Origin: Prolixibacter denitrificans
Lineage (GTDB): Bacteria; Bacteroidota; Bacteroidia; Bacteroidales; Prolixibacteraceae
Length of the DNA: 64,000 nucleotides
NCBI RefSeq assembly: GCF_003014495.1
Contig: NZ_PYGC01000005.1
Coordinates: 1 to 64,000, forward strand
Direction of reading: 5' to 3'
Numbering within the stretch: position 1 is the first letter of the stretch; every line of letters begins with the position of its first letter. A program made the position numbers and the translations under genes. Below are positions 3,591 to 16,388 of the stretch, piece by piece. The notes beneath the pieces were generated by a model that saw only the letters and a list, made by a program, of their open reading frames with translations, did no database searches and was not told the origin of the DNA.

Positions 3591-3869
3591 TCTAATTCCC
3601 CCTTCACAGCGCCCATCCGTGGACAATCCTCTGCGCTCTTTGCGGAAATCTCTGCGCTCTCTGCGTGGAACCTTCCCAATTCAAAATTTAAAATTCAGCA
3701 TTATTAATTCCCCCATTCTCCTCTTCTCCCAATCGCCCTCTTCCCCAGCCTCAGCGCCTCATCCGCCATACATTTATCACTTTTCTAACACAATCGTTGT
3801 ATGGTGAAAAATTTTTCACGAACTTCAAACATTGGCAGACGGTCTTTCCAAATCTTGAAACGTACGGAC

Positions 3870-5584: not shown

Positions 5585-6200
5585 TGTTAATCACCAGCCC
5601 AAAGTCCCCCATTTTTCATTGCACATTGTTCATTACCTTTATGCCCTATCCCATACACCATAAACCCTATACCATACACTATTTCGTTTCGGCTTTTCAT
5701 TTTTCATTCCTAATTGCACATTGTTCATTACCCTTTCTCCCACTCTCCGTTTCTCGCCTTCTCCCCATCACAGCGCCCATCCGTGGAAAAACCTCTGCGC
5801 TCTCAGCGAAAATCTCTGCGCCCTCTGCGTGGAATAAGATTCTCACATTCACTTGTTCAAAGTCGGCATTGCGGCGCAGGAACGTTATCATTTCAAGTCT
5901 GGTCCGAATATGCGCCTCTTTTAAATGCGTGGCATTCATTACCCAAGCCTGTCCCGACGAACGTCGTGGGGCGTTGCCATTGGGCTGAAGTAATCCGGCC
6001 CTTCAGGCCTTCGTCCCGAAAACCTCGAAGCTCATCCGTGGCATCCGTGAATCAAATCCGTGTCAATCCTCTTACAACAGCAACATCGAAGCGCCAATTC
6101 GCGTAATCCGTACTATCGTAATTGACTTCGTCGAACTTCGTTTCGCTTGAATTCGAGAAATTTTACTACACCGTGGCATCATGAAAACAATCCGTGTTAA
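5585..6200. repeat. Interspersed repeat block, copy C
   Basis: This is the third copy of the second half of the block found at 700-1290. The CATTGCA/CATACAC 7-base words, CTCTGCG words, GCGGCGCAGGAACG segment and the ATCCGTG/AATTCGCG tail are in the same order and orientation. Relative to copy A it carries a 23-base insertion at 5947-5969. The insertion contains its own hairpin (CCCGACG, AAC, CGTCGTGGG region) and splits the 20-base CCCAA/TTGGG hairpin. From 6201 to 6520 the tract decays into ATCCGTG/AATTCGTG words. Confidence 0.7.
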
Positions 6201-10365: not shown

Positions 10366-10408
10366 AAAAAATCAGACATTAGACGATAGAATAAAGATAT
10401 TAGACAAA

Positions 10409-10433
10409 GAGCCGGGTGCGAAAAGCCCGGCTC
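10409..10433 (+). terminator. Probable terminator hairpin
   Basis: GAGCCGGG and CCCGGCTC form a perfect 8-bp stem around TGCGAAAAG. The 3' side reads ATTTGTC rather than a clean T run, so this is weaker than the other terminators. Confidence 0.5.
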
Positions 10434-10439
10434 ATTTGT

Positions 10440-10762
10440 CGATATATAAATCTCACATTCAAGCCTTGAACATTACAACTACAGAAACTACAGGCAGTAA
10501 CTTGAAACCTCTCCTACCTTCAAACCTCAAATCTGAAAACTTCCCCTTAAACTTAAAACTTCTTTCGCCTACTTGTCTTTCATCTAACGTCTAAAGTCTG
10601 GCGTCAGTCTCCTTTAAACTCTTCGAACGATATAAGCTACAGAAACGGCTAGGCCCAAACATGAAACCTGAAACCATCTTAAAACTCTTCTTACAACAGT
10701 AACAACAGAAACTCTCCTAACAACAGGAACCGTATAATATCTGCCATCTGCCGTCTTTTTCT
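10440..10762. repeat. Low-complexity 7-base-period word tract
   Basis: About 320 bases of degenerate words at near 7-base spacing. The best runs are near 10565-10615 (CATCTAA, CGTCTAA, AGTCTGG, CGTCAGT) and 10740-10760 (ATCTGCC twice, then GTCTTTT). CTTAAAC words lie near 10548-10562 and GAAACCT/ACAACAG words at 10660-10730. No gene is present. The tract runs up to the promoter region of the Smr-domain gene. Confidence 0.55.
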
Positions 10763-10793: not shown

Positions 10794-11879
10794 ATGCAAA
10801 TCAAAATAGGAGACCGCGTACGGTTTTTAAATGATGTAGGCGGCGGGAAAGTAACATCCATCATCAACCCGAATATGGTGAATGTGGAAACGGAAGACGG
10901 GTTTGAATTGCCTACCCTCGTGACCGAACTGGTTGTAGTGAGTGGCGGCGAAACCTACGGTATGCCCGATGAAGCTTCCGAAAAGAATACGGTAGCGAAT
11001 GCCCCTACAACAACGAAAGCAGCTTCAGAAGACGAAGAGGAAGAAGCCGAGCCGGAATTTTATGGCTTTGCCGAAATCAACCAGGTGGAAGGAAACGACC
11101 AGCCACGATTCATTTTTGCCGTGGTTCCTGAAGATGCCAACAATGCGGTAGGTGCAGGAATTACCCTCTACCTAATCAACGATTGCAACTACTCCATTTT
11201 ATACCAGTTTGCCTATCGTCGTGACAAGAACTACGAAACACGCGACAGCGGCACACTGGAACCCAATACCCGCATTCAGTTGGAGCAACTGACGCAGGCT
11301 GATTTAGGTGATCTCCCTGCTTTCTGTTTCCAGTTACTATATTTCCGGAAGCATTCCACTTCGATGGAAGCCCCGGTACAAAAGGAAATCACGCTCAACC
11401 CGGTCAAATTCTATAAACAAAACTCGTTTTCGAAAAACGACTACTTCCGGAAACCGGCCATGACCTTTTCCCTGGTGACCGATCCGCTGACAGCAGAATT
11501 GGAAAAACTGTCTGATAAAGAATTCAATAAAATGGTCAGGGAAAAAGAGAAGCCGTCCAAAAAGAAGATGAAACCGGTCACACTTCCCAACCAGGATTTA
11601 GTGGAAATCGATTTGCACATCCAGGAGTTGATGGACGACACCCGTGGCCTGTCCAATACCGACATGCTGAAGATTCAGATGGACACCTTCCGGGAAGAAC
11701 TGGCCAAAGCCATCGAAATCGGAGTGAAAAAGATTGTCTTCATACATGGTGTAGGCAATGGTGTGCTGAAAAATGAGCTCCGTCGCGAATTACAACGCAA
11801 ATACCGTAAATATTCCTTTCAGGATGCCTCTTTCCAGGAATACGGATTCGGTGCTACGATGGTGAATCTAAAACGATGA
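10794..11879 (+). CDS. DUF2027 and Smr-domain protein (MutS2-related)
   Basis: 361 residues. The N-terminal ~50 residues (KIGDRVRFLNDVGGGKVTSI) form the SH3-like part of the Bacteroidota DUF2027 family. An acidic linker at about 70-90 leads into a central beta domain. The last ~90 residues are a Smr domain, with EIDLHI near 273 and IHGVGNGVLKNELR near 320 matching the two Smr signatures (LDLHG- and HGxGxGxLR-type). Smr domains are nucleases acting on nucleic acids in MutS2-like proteins; the cellular role of the DUF2027-Smr proteins is not established. A TACCTTCG box at 10763-10770 is a candidate -7 element. The gene is cytoplasmic and monocistronic. Confidence 0.88.
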   Translation: MQIKIGDRVRFLNDVGGGKVTSIINPNMVNVETEDGFELPTLVTELVVVSGGETYGMPDEASEKNTVANAPTTTKAASEDEEEEAEPEFYGFAEINQVEGNDQPRFIFAVVPEDANNAVGAGITLYLINDCNYSILYQFAYRRDKNYETRDSGTLEPNTRIQLEQLTQADLGDLPAFCFQLLYFRKHSTSMEAPVQKEITLNPVKFYKQNSFSKNDYFRKPAMTFSLVTDPLTAELEKLSDKEFNKMVREKEKPSKKKMKPVTLPNQDLVEIDLHIQELMDDTRGLSNTDMLKIQMDTFREELAKAIEIGVKKIVFIHGVGNGVLKNELRRELQRKYRKYSFQDASFQEYGFGATMVNLKR

Positions 11880-11887
11880 TCTTGAGA

Positions 11888-11941
11888 GCGGAACTGAGAA
11901 TGGGAGAAACGGTGAATTGGTGAAAAGGAGAGTGGGAGATT
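11888..11941 (-). repeat. 8-base-period array, left inverted arm around the first S23-family gene
   Basis: Octads GGGAGAAA, CGGTGAAT, TGGTGAAA, AGGAGAGT and GGGAGATT follow one another exactly. The reverse complement matches 12464-12514 almost base for base, apart from a 5-base insertion and one or two changes. The two therefore form inverted arms around the gene at 12023-12400. Confidence 0.7.
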
Positions 11942-12022
11942 AGCGATAAGAAGACCAGGTGACTTGAAAACGGATTAATGGGCTATTTTTCTTAATTTCA
12001 TTATGTCTTAAAAGTCGACCTC

Positions 12023-12400
12023 ATGAAGAAAATGATTCGGACGCATAATGAGTTGGAAGTATATCAGATAGCATTTAAAACAGCCCAAAAGATTCACCAA
12101 CTGACCATTCATTTTCCGATTGAGGAACGCTATTCGTTGACAGACCAGATCAGGAGAAGTTCAAGATCGGTTGCCGCAAATTTGGCCGAGGCTTACCGAA
12201 AAAGGCGTTATCCAAAGGCTTTTGTTTCAAAACTATCGGATGCAGAAGGAGAGGCTGCAGAAACGCAGGTCTGGCTTCAGTTTGCTCGTTCATTTGGCTA
12301 TCTCTCACAAGATGAAGAACAGCACCTAAGTTCGTTATATGACCAAATCATTGGAAAAATTGTCACCATGATAAATGCTCCGGAGAAATGGTCGCTTTAA
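12023..12400 (+). CDS. Four-helix-bundle protein (23S rRNA intervening-sequence/S23 family), copy 1
   Basis: 125 residues, soluble and helical. It carries the family signature LTDQIRRSSRSVAANLAEAY (about 39-58) and a helix-rich C-terminus with AEGEAAETQVWLQFA. Members of this family were first found inside intervening sequences of 23S rRNA genes. They also occur as free-standing genes, and a related fold serves as the accessory protein of diversity-generating retroelements. Their function as single genes is unknown. Here the gene sits between the Smr-domain gene and rnpB, and a second, only distantly similar member lies just past rnpB. Inverted octad arrays flank it. No reverse transcriptase is in the window. 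Confidence 0.85.
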   Translation: MKKMIRTHNELEVYQIAFKTAQKIHQLTIHFPIEERYSLTDQIRRSSRSVAANLAEAYRKRRYPKAFVSKLSDAEGEAAETQVWLQFARSFGYLSQDEEQHLSSLYDQIIGKIVTMINAPEKWSL

Positions 12401-12453
12401 TACCGATGAGAAATTCTCCCGGTTCCCCTCTCGCCACTTCCTTCAATCACCTC

Positions 12454-12571
12454 TTCTCTCCGTTTCTCCCACTCTCTTTTTCACCAATTCGCCTCACCGT
12501 TTCTCCCCTTCTCATCTTCTCCCCATCTCCGTTTCTCCCACTCACCCACTCTCCATTTCTCCCTCTCCCAT
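12454..12571 (+). repeat. 8-base-period TCTCC array, right arm
   Basis: About fifteen consecutive octads of the form TCTCCGTT, TCTCCCAC, TCTCTTTT, TCACCAAT, with one 5-base break. The array ends immediately before the rnpB promoter. Single or short versions of the same word occur in the large repeat blocks (840-870, 3050-3070, 5730-5760). Confidence 0.7.
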
Positions 12572-12592
12572 ACAGTTCTCGAAATAATTCAG

Positions 12593-12600
12593 TATTTTCG
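12593..12600 (+). promoter_or_regulatory. -7 box of rnpB
   Basis: TATTTTCG is one mismatch from TAnnTTTG and ends about six bases before the first helix of RNase P RNA. Confidence 0.55.
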
Positions 12601-12604
12601 CCCC

Positions 12605-12999
12605 GTCGCAGACCGTTCTATCGCGTTCCTTACGGGGAATGAGGAAAGTCCGGGCAACACAGGGCACCATGCTTCCTAACGGGAAGGCGGGTGTAAGCCT
12701 GCAGCAGTGTAACAGAAAACAACCGCTGCTCCGGACCTCGGTCCGAAACAGTAAGGGTGAAAAGGCGGGGTAAGAGCCCACCGGTATCTGTGGCAACACA
12801 GGTAGCCGTACGCCTCATGGGTTGTAAGGCCAAATATATTGCGAGTCCGCAAGGACACAGTGCGGCCCGCGCTGGTTCCGGTTAGCCGGAAGTCGCAAGG
12901 GGTAGGCTGCTCGAGGCTGCCGGTGACGGTAGTCCCAGATAAATGATAGAAGCCTTGCTTCGGCAAGGTACAGAACCCGGCTTACAGGTCTGCGATTTT
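12605..12999 (+). ncRNA. rnpB: RNase P RNA, bacterial type A
   Basis: This is the catalytic RNA that cuts 5' leaders from pre-tRNA. The first strand of helix P1 (CGCAGACC, 12607-12614) pairs with GGTCTGCG at 12987-12994. The universally conserved GAGGAAAGTCCGGGC (12641-12655) and ACAGAACCCGGCTTA (12970-12984) are present. So are AGGGTGAAAAGG in the specificity domain and the AGATAAATGATAG segment near the 3' end. The length of about 390 nt is normal. It has its own -7 box and ends in a T-rich stretch. Two S23-family genes flank it. Confidence 0.97.
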
Positions 13000-13010
13000 T
13001 TAGATAAACA

Positions 13011-13040
13011 GTTTTAAGATTTAAGTATTAAGTTTTAAGA
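13011..13040 (-). repeat. 7-base-period array (GTTTTAA words), left arm
   Basis: Heptads GTTTTAA, GATTTAA, GTATTAA and GTTTTAA follow exactly, just after rnpB. They are inverted relative to the CTTAAAA array at 13499-13528, on the other side of the second S23-family gene. Confidence 0.7.
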
Positions 13041-13111
13041 CAATTGAATGAGTTTTAATTTGCGCTGAAGACCAGTAGAATCTTCTGACAACTTTCTGAA
13101 AAACGAGAGAA

Positions 13112-13477
13112 ATGTACCATTCATTTGAGAATCTGGAAGTATGGAAAAAAGCATATCGATTGATCATCCAAATCTATTCTGCCTTTTCCAGCACCAAAGA
13201 ATACTTTATCAGAGACCAGATATTACGTTCATCCTTGTCTATCCCGAGCAACATTGCAGAAGGAGCTGAACGAAATTCGAAACAAGAGTTCATTCGGTTT
13301 TTACATATTGCGAAAGGTTCTTGTGGAGAATTGCGGACGCAGTTGATGATTGCCCGTGATTTAAAATTGATGGATAACGCAGAAGAGTTCATCAATCAAA
13401 CAATTGAAATCTCATCTATGCTTCATGGCCTGATCAAAAAAATCGAAGCATCTCAAAACAAAACCTCAAAGCAATAA
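13112..13477 (+). CDS. Four-helix-bundle protein (S23 family), copy 2
   Basis: 121 residues, soluble and helical. It begins MYHSFENLEVWKKAYRL, the most typical start of the family, and continues with FIRDQILRSSLSIPSNIAEGAERNS (about 32-56) and AKGSCGELRTQLMIA (about 70-84). It is the better match of the two to the canonical 23S intervening-sequence protein. It starts about 115 bases past the end of rnpB and is bracketed by inverted 7-base-period arrays, paralleling copy 1 and its octad arms. The biological role of free-standing members is unknown. Confidence 0.9.
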   Translation: MYHSFENLEVWKKAYRLIIQIYSAFSSTKEYFIRDQILRSSLSIPSNIAEGAERNSKQEFIRFLHIAKGSCGELRTQLMIARDLKLMDNAEEFINQTIEISSMLHGLIKKIEASQNKTSKQ

Positions 13478-13498
13478 TCGAGGCGCATTGCCCCTTCT

Positions 13499-13528
13499 CT
13501 TAAAACTTAAAACATAACACTTAACACT
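13499..13528 (+). repeat. 7-base-period array (CTTAAAA words), right arm
   Basis: CTTAAAA, CTTAAAA, CATAACA and CTTAACA are in exact 7-base register, between the second S23-family gene and the Wzi-family gene, eight bases before its ATG. Confidence 0.7.
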
Positions 13529-13536
13529 ATTTTTTA

Positions 13537-14949
13537 ATGAAATATTTCGCCACCATCATCCTCCTGAGCATCAGCTCGGTGTTATTTGCCCAGAAATCCG
13601 GATTCACTCCGGAGTTTAGCACTTCTTTCAGCAGTTATGCCTCTTCGGGTGATGACCTGCCCTTTTGGATGACGGCCAACCAAAACGGTATGTTCACCAT
13701 GCAGAACAATACATACCAGTTGCTGCAGGCCGGACTGACAAGAAGTCTGGAGCGTGATTCAGCCAAAACCTGGGGATACATGTACGGAGCCAATTTCGTG
13801 TATGGTTATGCGGGCGCTTCCGATTTTCAGGTCAACCAATACTGGGCTGGATTACGTTACAAGTGGCTGGTGCTGCGTGCCGGAGCGAAACCGGAGCCGA
13901 TTCAATATGCCGGCCTCTCCTCCACCAATGGCAACATGTACTGGTCCAATAATTCACGCCCGCTGCCGGGAGTTACCCTCTCGACCGATGGTTTCATTCC
14001 GTTTCTCTTTTGGAAGAACTGGTTCTCGTTTAAGGCCGAATACCAGGAAAATTTCCTTCGCGACAACCGCTATGTAATGGACAGCCATCTGCATCATAAG
14101 AGTCTTTATTTAAGGGCGCAGCTACCGAAAAACTGGAGCATTACAGCTGGATTGGATCACAACGTATTCTGGGGGGGGACTTCGCCTGACTATGGTAAAC
14201 TACCCGGGATAAAAGATTATTTCCGTTACATATTGGGGATGGCAGGGAGTAAAACTGCGCTTCAAACCGATATTCTTAATGCCGAAGGCAACACGCTCGG
14301 AATGTACCTGTTGAAAGTAGGGAAAGCATACAATAACTTCTCGTTGACATTCTACTACAACCATCCGTTTGAAGATCGATCCGGCCTGGAAATGGCCAAC
14401 CTGCGGGACGGTTTGTGGGGGCTGCATTATGCCAACGTAAACCGAAAAGCGTTCCTCACCGATGCAGTGGTCGAATACATGAATACCCGCAACCAGAGCG
14501 GCTCTTTCCATTTGGTTCCCGATCCCACTCCAACCGAGCCGACACGAAGGCATGGTAGGGGTAGAGACAATTATTTCAATAACAGTGTTTATCGCTCTGG
14601 TTATGTATATCAGAACCGCATGATGGGAACGCCGTTCTTCATTCCCAACATTAATAGCGAGGGAATCTCTACTGGTTTTCACAGCACGAGAATGTGGATG
14701 CAACATTTCGGCTTAAAAGGTAATCTGTGCACTCATTTGACGTGGAAAACCATGTTGTCCTGGTCACGCAACTTCGGCCAATATGGTGACCCGTATCCGT
14801 CGCCGTTGAATGAATTCTCATTTCTGGCGGAAAGCCGGTACCACAGCAGCAAATTACCATTCGATGTGAAGTTCGGTGTAGCCGGAGACTATGGCGACCG
14901 CTTTCAGAAACGTATCGGCGCTTATGCCGGGATTCACTACGCATTTTAA
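13537..14949 (+). CDS. Capsule assembly Wzi family outer-membrane protein
   Basis: 470 residues with a signal peptide (MKYFATIILLSISSVLFAQ). After it comes a long run of alternating, aromatic-rich beta segments expected of an outer-membrane beta barrel. Residues around DDLPFWMTANQNGMFT and the repeated WGGTSPDYG/PGIKDYFRYI type segments fit the Bacteroidota branch of the Wzi family (Cap_assemb_Wzi). Wzi proteins help attach or organise capsular polysaccharide at the cell surface. Its neighbours are not capsule genes, but wecB and two WecA-like genes lie within 12 kb upstream. Only 39 bases separate it from queA, so the two may be co-transcribed. Confidence 0.85.
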   Translation: MKYFATIILLSISSVLFAQKSGFTPEFSTSFSSYASSGDDLPFWMTANQNGMFTMQNNTYQLLQAGLTRSLERDSAKTWGYMYGANFVYGYAGASDFQVNQYWAGLRYKWLVLRAGAKPEPIQYAGLSSTNGNMYWSNNSRPLPGVTLSTDGFIPFLFWKNWFSFKAEYQENFLRDNRYVMDSHLHHKSLYLRAQLPKNWSITAGLDHNVFWGGTSPDYGKLPGIKDYFRYILGMAGSKTALQTDILNAEGNTLGMYLLKVGKAYNNFSLTFYYNHPFEDRSGLEMANLRDGLWGLHYANVNRKAFLTDAVVEYMNTRNQSGSFHLVPDPTPTEPTRRHGRGRDNYFNNSVYRSGYVYQNRMMGTPFFIPNINSEGISTGFHSTRMWMQHFGLKGNLCTHLTWKTMLSWSRNFGQYGDPYPSPLNEFSFLAESRYHSSKLPFDVKFGVAGDYGDRFQKRIGAYAGIHYAF

Positions 14950-16218: not shown

Positions 16219-16388
16219 GTTTTAAGTCATAAGTTTTAAGTGTTAAGAACTTCTGCGCCGGAATAGAAGCAGAGCCTTTATTTCTCCTTTATTTCGAGGA
16301 TTATGAGCGTAAAATATTATTGACTCCCATTGTATAGACGCGGCCAAAGCTCTTTCTTAAAACTTAACACTTGAATTCTTAAAACTTT
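16219..16388. repeat. Inverted pair of 7-base-period arrays with a 105-base centre
   Basis: GTTTTAA, GTCATAA, GTTTTAA and GTGTTAA at 16219-16246 face CTTAAAA, CTTAACA, CTTGAAT at 16356-16376 with an added CTTAAAA. The array overlaps the last base of the queA stop codon and lies between two convergent genes. The centre contains no gene. Confidence 0.65.

Follow-up and report, generated by a model that had tools for sequence, protein, structure and literature searches.

By the early 1990s, S23-family proteins were already recognized as proteins of rRNA intervening sequences (a paper of 1993 is among the references), and PMC4990558 states that they still lack a known function. For Coxiella, the same source describes an rRNA intervening sequence that contains an S23 open reading frame (ORF) and has a terminal stem of 28 bp; it also has heptamer repeats, with an RNase III site located at the first of them. 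Here we describe two S23 genes that lie on either side of rnpB, the gene for RNase P RNA, in a 64,000-nt stretch of Prolixibacter denitrificans (contig NZ_PYGC01000005.1, positions 1 to 64,000), referred to here as the window. The elements that carry these genes resemble the rRNA intervening sequences of Leptospira and Coxiella (PMC4990558) in that an S23-family ORF is looped between complementary ends, heptamer repeats lie by the stem (GACAGAT in Coxiella), residence is patchy and site specific, and the insert presumably sits inside a transcribed unit. They differ in that they occupy protein-gene spacers or flank rnpB and do not interrupt 23S rRNA, in that their arms are arrays built on different words in different elements, and in that intact genes of two of the protein types discussed below (A and B) are under purifying selection whereas the Coxiella ORF is described in that source as in reductive evolution. 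Both window elements have complementary ends and an S23 ORF in the loop. Since they lie in the Smr|rnpB and rnpB|Wzi spacers and not in an rRNA, we class them as working like, yet not being, rRNA intervening sequences.

Intergenic inverted repeats are also familiar as repetitive extragenic palindromes (REP), bacterial interspersed mosaic elements (BIME), and miniature inverted-repeat transposable elements (MITE); unlike these, the elements here have no shared motif that we could see by eye within the genome, and their arms lie several hundred bases apart around an ORF. Cyanobacteria carry short tandem heptamer repeats (STRR). The TAACTGA repeats of Beggiatoaceae are intergenic arrays with a 7-bp period, treated in a paper that includes a section on Bacteroidetes and raises a mobile repeat-binding protein as a possibility (PMC4679880). 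Both kinds differ from the elements here in being described as direct repeats, with one inverted case, and the term S23 does not occur in the main text of the paper. The upstream S23 protein of the window (copy 1) is distantly related in sequence to Avd/bAvd, the accessory protein of diversity-generating retroelements, with scores below the cut-offs (PF22296, 34.9 bits against 40; NF033474, 25.4 bits against 80), and the downstream protein (copy 2) has no such match at E 0.001; structures of Avd and PF05635 suggest homology (PMC10053308). Among open-licence papers, no title or abstract that we found describes S23 or GxxExxY elements that lie between cistrons and have inverted arrays as arms; GxxExxY is mentioned in two papers of that literature and the profile TIGR02436 in none.

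We favor, with a probability of roughly 58%, the explanation that the S23 genes beside rnpB are the cargo of small intercistronic elements built like an rRNA intervening sequence. Each element would consist of a 5' arm made of a 7-8 bp array, an S23 ORF in the loop, and a complementary 3' arm. Comparison among loci establishes this anatomy, in several phyla, for roughly one half of the S23 genes sampled, and it establishes that the elements lie in co-directional spacers and start at the upstream stop codon. The same comparison establishes that the same slots are used in different genera, that cassettes are exchanged, decay, or are lost in place, and that one slot can hold either an S23 or a GxxExxY gene.

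The rnpB gene of the window encodes a class A RNase P RNA (12605-13000, forward strand; Rfam RF00010, 248.1 bits against a gathering threshold of 100). Copy 1 (12023-12400, forward strand, 125 aa) matches PF05635 at 104 bits and TIGR02436 at 103.2 bits. Copy 2, which represents type A (13112-13477, forward strand, 121 aa), matches PF05635 at 116.7 bits, TIGR02436 at 119.5 bits, and NF008912 at 144.9 bits, the last exceeding its cut-off of 124. Both clear the curated cut-offs of PF05635 (33.8) and TIGR02436 (24), and both match in sequence the solved S23-type structure 2gsc (XCC0516; E 1.3e-14 and 2e-14 for copies 1 and 2) and the solved structure 2rld (E 3.2e-7 and 7.1e-6). Judged by these matches, the two proteins belong to the S23 family of four-helix bundles. 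They share 32% identity (34/105) and fall in separate clades of the S23 tree (support 100/97), so they are not recent duplicates, as a sequence-only reading of the window had held.

The 5' arm of element 1 (11884-11941, forward strand) is purine-rich, of GGGAGAAA type with a period of about 8 by eye, and begins 4 nt past the Smr stop codon. Tandem Repeats Finder (TRF) reports no array at 11888-11941, and the arm is evident through complementarity and through pairing in the minimum free energy (MFE) fold. The 3' arm is a TTTCTCCC-type array of period 8/16 at about 12415-12571 on the forward strand (TRF 12497-12539 and 12497-12567, complementarity, and MFE fold), in which the outermost stem partner lies near 12537. 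Element 2 has arms of period 7 on the forward strand, both recovered by TRF: GTTTTAA at 13010-13040, directly behind the T-run that trails rnpB, and CTTAAAA at 13499-13528, which stops 8 nt short of the Wzi start codon and provides the outermost pair of the MFE fold at 13528. Smith-Waterman complementarity between the flanks is 72 for copy 1 and 41 for copy 2, against a threshold of 31. In both MFE folds the ORF is closed within the arm-arm stem, with z -3.86 and 0 of 20 shuffles equally stable for copy 1, and z -1.89 and 3 of 100 for copy 2. The neighboring genes, DUF2027/Smr upstream and Wzi downstream, share the strand of rnpB and the S23 genes, and arm, S23 gene, and arm make up nearly everything in the two spacers. 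The Rfam and Pfam matches, the complementarity, and the folds bear out the sequence-only reading of rnpB as flanked by two S23 genes between inverted arrays. Its arms for copy 2 (13011-13040 and 13499-13528) agree with TRF; its arms for copy 1 (11888-11941 and 12454-12571) are real, with the upstream start moved to about 11884 and the 3' array widened to about 12415-12571.

We scored arm complementarity by Smith-Waterman alignment of the 300 nt upstream of each gene with the reverse complement of the 300 nt downstream, and took as threshold a score of 31, the 99th percentile among 860 pairs of mismatched flanks. The window and 255 further loci, 256 sequences in all, yielded 172 S23 ORFs with flanks, or 170 after merging two broken genes. 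Of these, 96 belong to the family of the window and were drawn mainly from the top-scoring of its 374 hits; the other 74 belong to named genomes, whose loci were chosen by similarity to copy 2. The samples are thus not random. Before counting, we discarded S23 hits below 35 bits as well as flanks that were duplicates or had fewer than 150 nt, and all counts of period, arm composition, strand, neighbor pairs, slot classes, and arm position refer to the unmerged set (172 ORFs, 83 armed). We found that 82 of the 170 S23 genes have complementary flanks above threshold (38/96 in the family and 44/74 in named genomes; 83/172 before merging). Direct-orientation matches exceeded it for 14 of 170, and none of the controls did (0/26 cold-shock genes and 0/145 other genes, 0/171 together); the 145 are 148 generic controls minus three above threshold that were themselves S23 genes (two at L040, one at L162; L, G, and C numbers are our handles for loci, genomes, and contigs). 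Armed named loci include some from Bacteroidota, Verrucomicrobia, Gammaproteobacteria, Epsilonproteobacteria, Anaerolineae, Omnitrophota, Syntrophaceae, and candidate-phyla bacteria, and armed S23 genes come from at least seven phyla. Upstream flanks have periods of 7, 8, and 14 in 33%, 10%, and 15% of cases, compared with 0-2% of controls at those lags. The 5' arm is G-rich in 64 of the 83 armed elements and C-rich in 11.

The position of the elements is as regular as their anatomy. Both neighbors lie on the S23 strand in 135 of 162 elements (84/91 in the family, 51/71 in named genomes), whereas 455 kb of this genome contain 366 gene triplets, of which 188 lie on one strand (P about 1e-12). 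In the armed set, pairing begins a median of 2 nt past the stop codon of the upstream gene (n = 75, of which 47 fall within -10 to +20) and ends a median of 12 nt ahead of the next ORF (n = 71). Both neighbors are homologous in 265 locus pairs, and slot classes seen at least twice take in 108 of 171 elements, some via near-identical relatives. A neighbor was defined as the longest same-strand open frame within 1 kb, and some of these may be spurious; single linkage may lump transporter genes into one slot class. According to our reading of the Pfam families on representatives, the recurrent slots are the methylmalonyl-CoA mutase subunits (mutA|mutB, 15 elements), the halves of methionine synthase (8), ABC permease pairs, ABC ATPase with permease, and redoxin with a HisH-type amidotransferase (7 each), succinate dehydrogenase A and B type (sdhA|sdhB) and lipoamide dehydrogenase with E1 type (Lpd|E1) (5 each), and CysD with CysN type (5: four Pseudomonadota and one genome of the window's family). 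Four elements each lie in HlyD with ABC and MoxR with DUF58, and three each in Gmd with fucose synthase type, HisH with HisA type, and HlyD with RND. The same slots recur across genera, and most identified slots are protein operons. We do not count a preference for subunit partners as a property of its own, because operon neighbors are often partners anyway. At each of five places (G038:C200, G010:C31, G042:C9, G009:C56, and G052:C11), three S23 genes lie within a few kb, and several of these genes are in slots between ABC transporter genes.

Two slots illustrate the exchange of cargo. We read the mutA|mutB spacer in the best-scoring 30 of 55 matching family genomes and found 12 S23 genes, 4 GxxExxY genes whose cassettes carry ACACAAAG-type arms, 4 array hairpins that by eye lack an ORF (G035, G057, G042, and G052), 1 array remnant, 6 short spacers of 8-49 bp, and 3 with other contents. 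S23 lineages tend to keep their slot, with 15 of 15 mutA|mutB S23 genes in one 23-row clade. The methionine synthase (metH) junction was readable in 27 of 30 fetched loci of its class (L374-L403); 11 were fused and 16 were split between the first two domains. The split junctions held 4 S23 genes, 1 GxxExxY gene (score 54), 8 spacers under 60 bp, and 3 with other sequence. Altogether, 5 of 31 GxxExxY elements occupy a slot that has S23 in another genome (L348, L357, L360, and L368 in mutA|mutB, and L379 at the metH junction). The GxxExxY elements (PDDEXK_3, PF13366) resemble S23 elements in these shared slots, in their mostly co-directional surroundings (25/29), and in that some have inverted arms (10 of 31 non-duplicate elements). 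They differ in their unrelated protein, in other, longer-period array words (CACAGAG/CACAAAG, by eye), and in frequent direct repeats, which we found at 12 of the 25 tabulated loci (30 were fetched), with inverted repeats at 9 of 25. Within long spacers of the window, CTCTGCG/TCAGCG-type arrays at 897-938, 3618-3670, and 5788-5829 resemble those flanking GxxExxY genes; we noticed no such gene in those spacers.

The slots beside rnpB show turnover among related genomes. In 27 of 54 family genomes, Smr is the gene immediately before rnpB, and the spacer between the two is shorter than 1 kb. Copy 1 lies in this spacer in the window genome (G000) and G027; G006 has a truncated copy there, G039 a unit that lacks S23, and three more genomes a divergent S23 class (C). 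By eye, the spacer holds S23-less inverted arrays with other words in G029, G057, G030, G018, and G007, and arrays in G002; array-free spacers of 13-51 bp are found in G003, G005, G017, G021, G025, G036, G048, and G058. In an automatic test, arrays of period 6-8 were present in 11 of 28 Smr|rnpB spacers compared with 2 of 38 spacers around cold-shock genes (P 0.001), and hairpins exceeding 20 shuffles in 12/28 compared with 7/38 (P 0.053, borderline); these P values are post hoc because the slot was picked for looking odd. In the spacer before the Smr gene (window 10374-10600), we saw by eye an S23-less TTAGAC/GTCTAA array pair whose word type is that of the type B arms beside rnpB in G039.

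Of copy 1 itself, G000 has an intact gene, G027 a frameshifted one, and G006 a truncated one, and G039 has none. Behind rnpB, the same place holds type A in G000 and G006 and type B in G027 and G039, and in G039 the 3' tail and 3' arm of type A persist behind type B. Identity between G000 and G027 in 100-base bins is 91-100% over 11101-13000 (11101 being the first bin with data), 69-76% across 13101-13500, 81-93% over 13501-14100, and 73-78% over 14101-14400, near the end of the locus. The rnpB|Wzi cassette appears in this profile as a step of lower identity. We reject a recent independent insertion of copy 1 in these two genomes, since one recombined block, 91-100% identical, carries copy 1 and explains its presence in both. 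Two unrelated arrivals behind rnpB are likewise rejected, since types A and B are sisters in the tree (54-59% identity across species, support 98/89). Because of this sister position and the type A tail in G039, we treat types A and B as the probable result of allelic exchange, or of an old tandem pair with differential loss. Estimates of dN/dS are 0.082 for type A (copy 2 against G006) and 0.095 for type B, with 0.07-0.08 for the neighboring Wzi, and by this measure the intact genes of both types are under purifying selection.

Similar changes are seen at other sites of these genomes. At the PfkB|lactate-racemase-type site, S23 is present in G000 and G027, G006 has the same arms as a small S23-less hairpin, and G039 has a remnant. 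At the transporter site, the S23 genes of G000 and G039 are 51% identical and have different arms between neighbors that are 94-96% identical. At the dehydrogenase site, the S23 gene and arms are common to G000 and G039, with an additional tail in G039. Between G021 and G036, the neighbors of an S23 gene are 95-99% identical and the S23 genes 53%, pointing to exchange within the slot. At locus L339 of G039, an intact S23 gene is followed by the tail of another S23 gene and by another 3' arm, an arrangement that G039 also has behind rnpB.

Because the layout equals that of an rRNA intervening sequence, we propose that the elements are co-transcribed, folded, and cut by RNase III. An element would have no promoter of its own and would be transcribed along with the host operon, its arms would pair in the RNA, and an RNase III-type double-strand nuclease would cut the stem, as for rRNA intervening sequences. 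The element would be cut out or cut open, and the Smr mRNA, rnpB, and the Wzi mRNA would be released without functional loss. It would be tolerable because the cut frees the upstream and downstream cistrons undamaged. The S23 protein might bind the nucleic acid of its own element, a function that we infer, as we do the RNA processing. Exchange between species within a slot would proceed by homologous recombination via the conserved flanking genes, as the identity profile at rnpB suggests. We propose that rnpB has two such neighbors because both of its spacers are usable slots.

Several observations weigh against this explanation. Below the arm threshold are 88 of the 170 S23 genes, some with weak arms and some with none, and L141-L143 and L145 are among those that do not rise above background. 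In G027 and G039, the type B gene beside rnpB reaches only 16-17, and its arms can be made out only by eye; the four metH-slot S23 spacers score only 17-25, and the fold of copy 2 departs modestly from shuffles. The arm rule is weaker for GxxExxY cargo because direct repeats are at least as common as inverted ones. Our strand baseline comes from this genome only, and some slot classes consist partly of near-identical relatives in a non-random sample. No mobility enzyme appeared in the ORF lists, and no target-site duplication was demonstrated, no analysis having been aimed at one. Transcription, cleavage, and translation of S23 are predictions from sequence. Finally, a host function would explain the low dN/dS and the long stay in slots just as well as parasitism would.

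The last point leads to the explanation that competes best, although we consider it unlikely: the hairpins would belong to the host operon and serve 3' end protection, partial termination, or subunit stoichiometry, S23 and GxxExxY proteins would be regulators or assembly helpers, and slots would persist because the spacer is useful. Many slots do lie between partner subunits (mutA|mutB, sdhA|sdhB, cysD|cysN, and Lpd|E1), but such neighbors follow from residence in conserved operons at all. The same slot is used over many genera, yet presence is patchy even inside one genus, and relatives manage with spacers of 8-20 bp. Hairpins that remain without S23 (G006; G035, G057, G042, and G052) would suit a structure useful in itself, as would the dN/dS of 0.08-0.095 and an S23-less inverted array pair of the window at 16219-16387 that fills a convergent gap exactly. 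Against this, copy 1 is frameshifted and truncated in congeners, and unrelated cargo is able to occupy the same slot. We therefore prefer a tolerated parasite to a host regulator, since decay, exchange, and the short spacers of relatives favor the parasite.

It is more improbable still that the elements are DNA transposon-like units, with arms as terminal inverted repeats read by a recombinase, bare hairpins as MITE-like derivatives, and S23 as the mobility protein or an accessory. The other elements of this genome bear on this point. A search of the genome (4.73 Mb) with PF05635 found five genes, all flanked by inverted short-period arms by eye; four of the five pass the strict test, and L005 equals the threshold. 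The three further sites lie between UDP-glucose-type dehydrogenase and UDP-GlcNAc epimerase, membrane-fusion and RND transporter, and PfkB and lactate-racemase-type genes, named by Pfam on these or orthologous loci. In two contigs of this genome (455 kb), 17 of 291 spacers bear arrays, and 2 of those 17 are S23-less inverted pairs that pass the strict test. The pair at 16219-16387 (inverted self score 33) has the GTTTTAA/CTTAAAA word of element 2, lies between two convergent stop codons, and represents a bare relative of element 2. What a transposon would leave is indeed seen here: inverted arms, some with cargo and some without, many different slots, and in-place differences among congeners. 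However, by eye the arm word differs among the five elements (GGGAGAAA, GTTTTAA, GATCAGTG, GTTTCAG, and GGCAAA types), and because of this we see no shared terminal motif (no motif search was run). ORF lists reveal no additional long ORF between the arms of the five elements (no transposase profile search was made), the strand bias of 135/162 relative to the host operon would be unusual for DNA transposons, and flank-mediated exchange accounts for the in-place swaps.

The sequence-only reading had tied S23 to catalytic or structured RNA genes, and an affinity of S23 proteins for catalytic RNA genes, acting here on RNase P RNA, is a very improbable explanation. It draws on the bracketing of rnpB in the window and on an S23-type ORF within 1.5 kb of rnpB in 7 of the 54 family genomes that have rnpB (four of the window's genus, two of a second genus, and one of a third). 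If the 374 S23 hits of the 60 family genomes were placed uniformly, about 0.24 genomes would be expected, in a comparison made post hoc. That reading had named random S23 positions and absence near rnpB in all relatives as the outcome that would speak against it; S23 positions are non-random, and rnpB adjacency recurs in relatives, so far as the survey of the family goes. Outside the family, we surveyed 90 of the 139 other-family Bacteroidales genomes with a full rnpB match, and none of the 90 has an S23 or GxxExxY ORF within 1-1.5 kb on each side of rnpB (less at contig ends). ARAGORN found 2 tRNA genes in total at 60 other S23 loci, about as expected with about 50 tRNA genes per genome, and Rfam found nothing beyond the same two tRNAs at 40 of these loci and no match at L001, L002, and L005. 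S23 genes lie mostly in co-directional protein-gene spacers, and the Smr|rnpB slot of other genera holds arrays without S23. On the rnpB surveys, ARAGORN at 60 loci, and Rfam at 43, we reject a catalytic-RNA tropism of S23 as a general rule. Given 0/90 outside the family and only 2 tRNAs at other S23 loci, rnpB is therefore a family-level hot spot, and its adjacency looks like one hot spot of a wider element pattern; a role of S23 genes in RNase P is not indicated. A weak extra RNase P RNA match at L065 (G039:C2:650208-650259, 19.9 bits, below gathering) is probably due to chance.

Of the three classes of S23 gene beside rnpB, two lie upstream: copy 1 and the divergent class C (G026, G050, and G052). 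Class C shares 15-30% identity with the other rnpB-side genes, the lowest values coming from short alignments. The third class, made up of types A and B, lies downstream. In our tree (133 rows, few columns), copy 1 and class C lie inside one 21-row clade (100/97) and may share an ancestor in the Smr|rnpB slot. The two separate arrivals proposed by the sequence-only reading agree with the placement of copies 1 and 2 in different clades, but a label test on nine rnpB-side genes (least change forced, 1) is compatible with one origin. That ordinary repeats and two unrelated genes met near rnpB by chance can practically be set aside: short-period arrays are abundant in this genome (with a low threshold, TRF gives 46 rows for the window), but the complementarity and period controls oppose it, as do arrays in 17/291 spacers and 2/38 cold-shock spacers compared with 11/28 Smr|rnpB slots.

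We reasoned further that the elements with S23 may be part of a widespread, unnamed class of intercistronic hairpin elements, to which we give somewhat less than an even chance. Such elements would have paired arms of a self-chosen word, of 7-8 bp and perhaps longer for GxxExxY, would reach from a stop codon to the next start, and would carry as exchangeable cargo an S23 four-helix bundle, a GxxExxY protein of nuclease fold, or none. Their arms would vary yet stay complementary, and rRNA intervening sequences would be one special case. If true, scattered GxxExxY genes and many short-period arrays could fall in one kind of element. It would also point to an RNA hairpin tolerated between subunits of central enzymes, and it would suggest that inserts of this kind can be made near-neutral by RNA processing rather than by splicing. 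If many non-rRNA S23 genes are the cargo of inverted arrays in operons, S23 biology would be testable in harmless cultured bacteria without touching rRNA. In the present case, the explanation of S23 genes as cargo of such elements would give a plain account of the odd neighborhood of rnpB.

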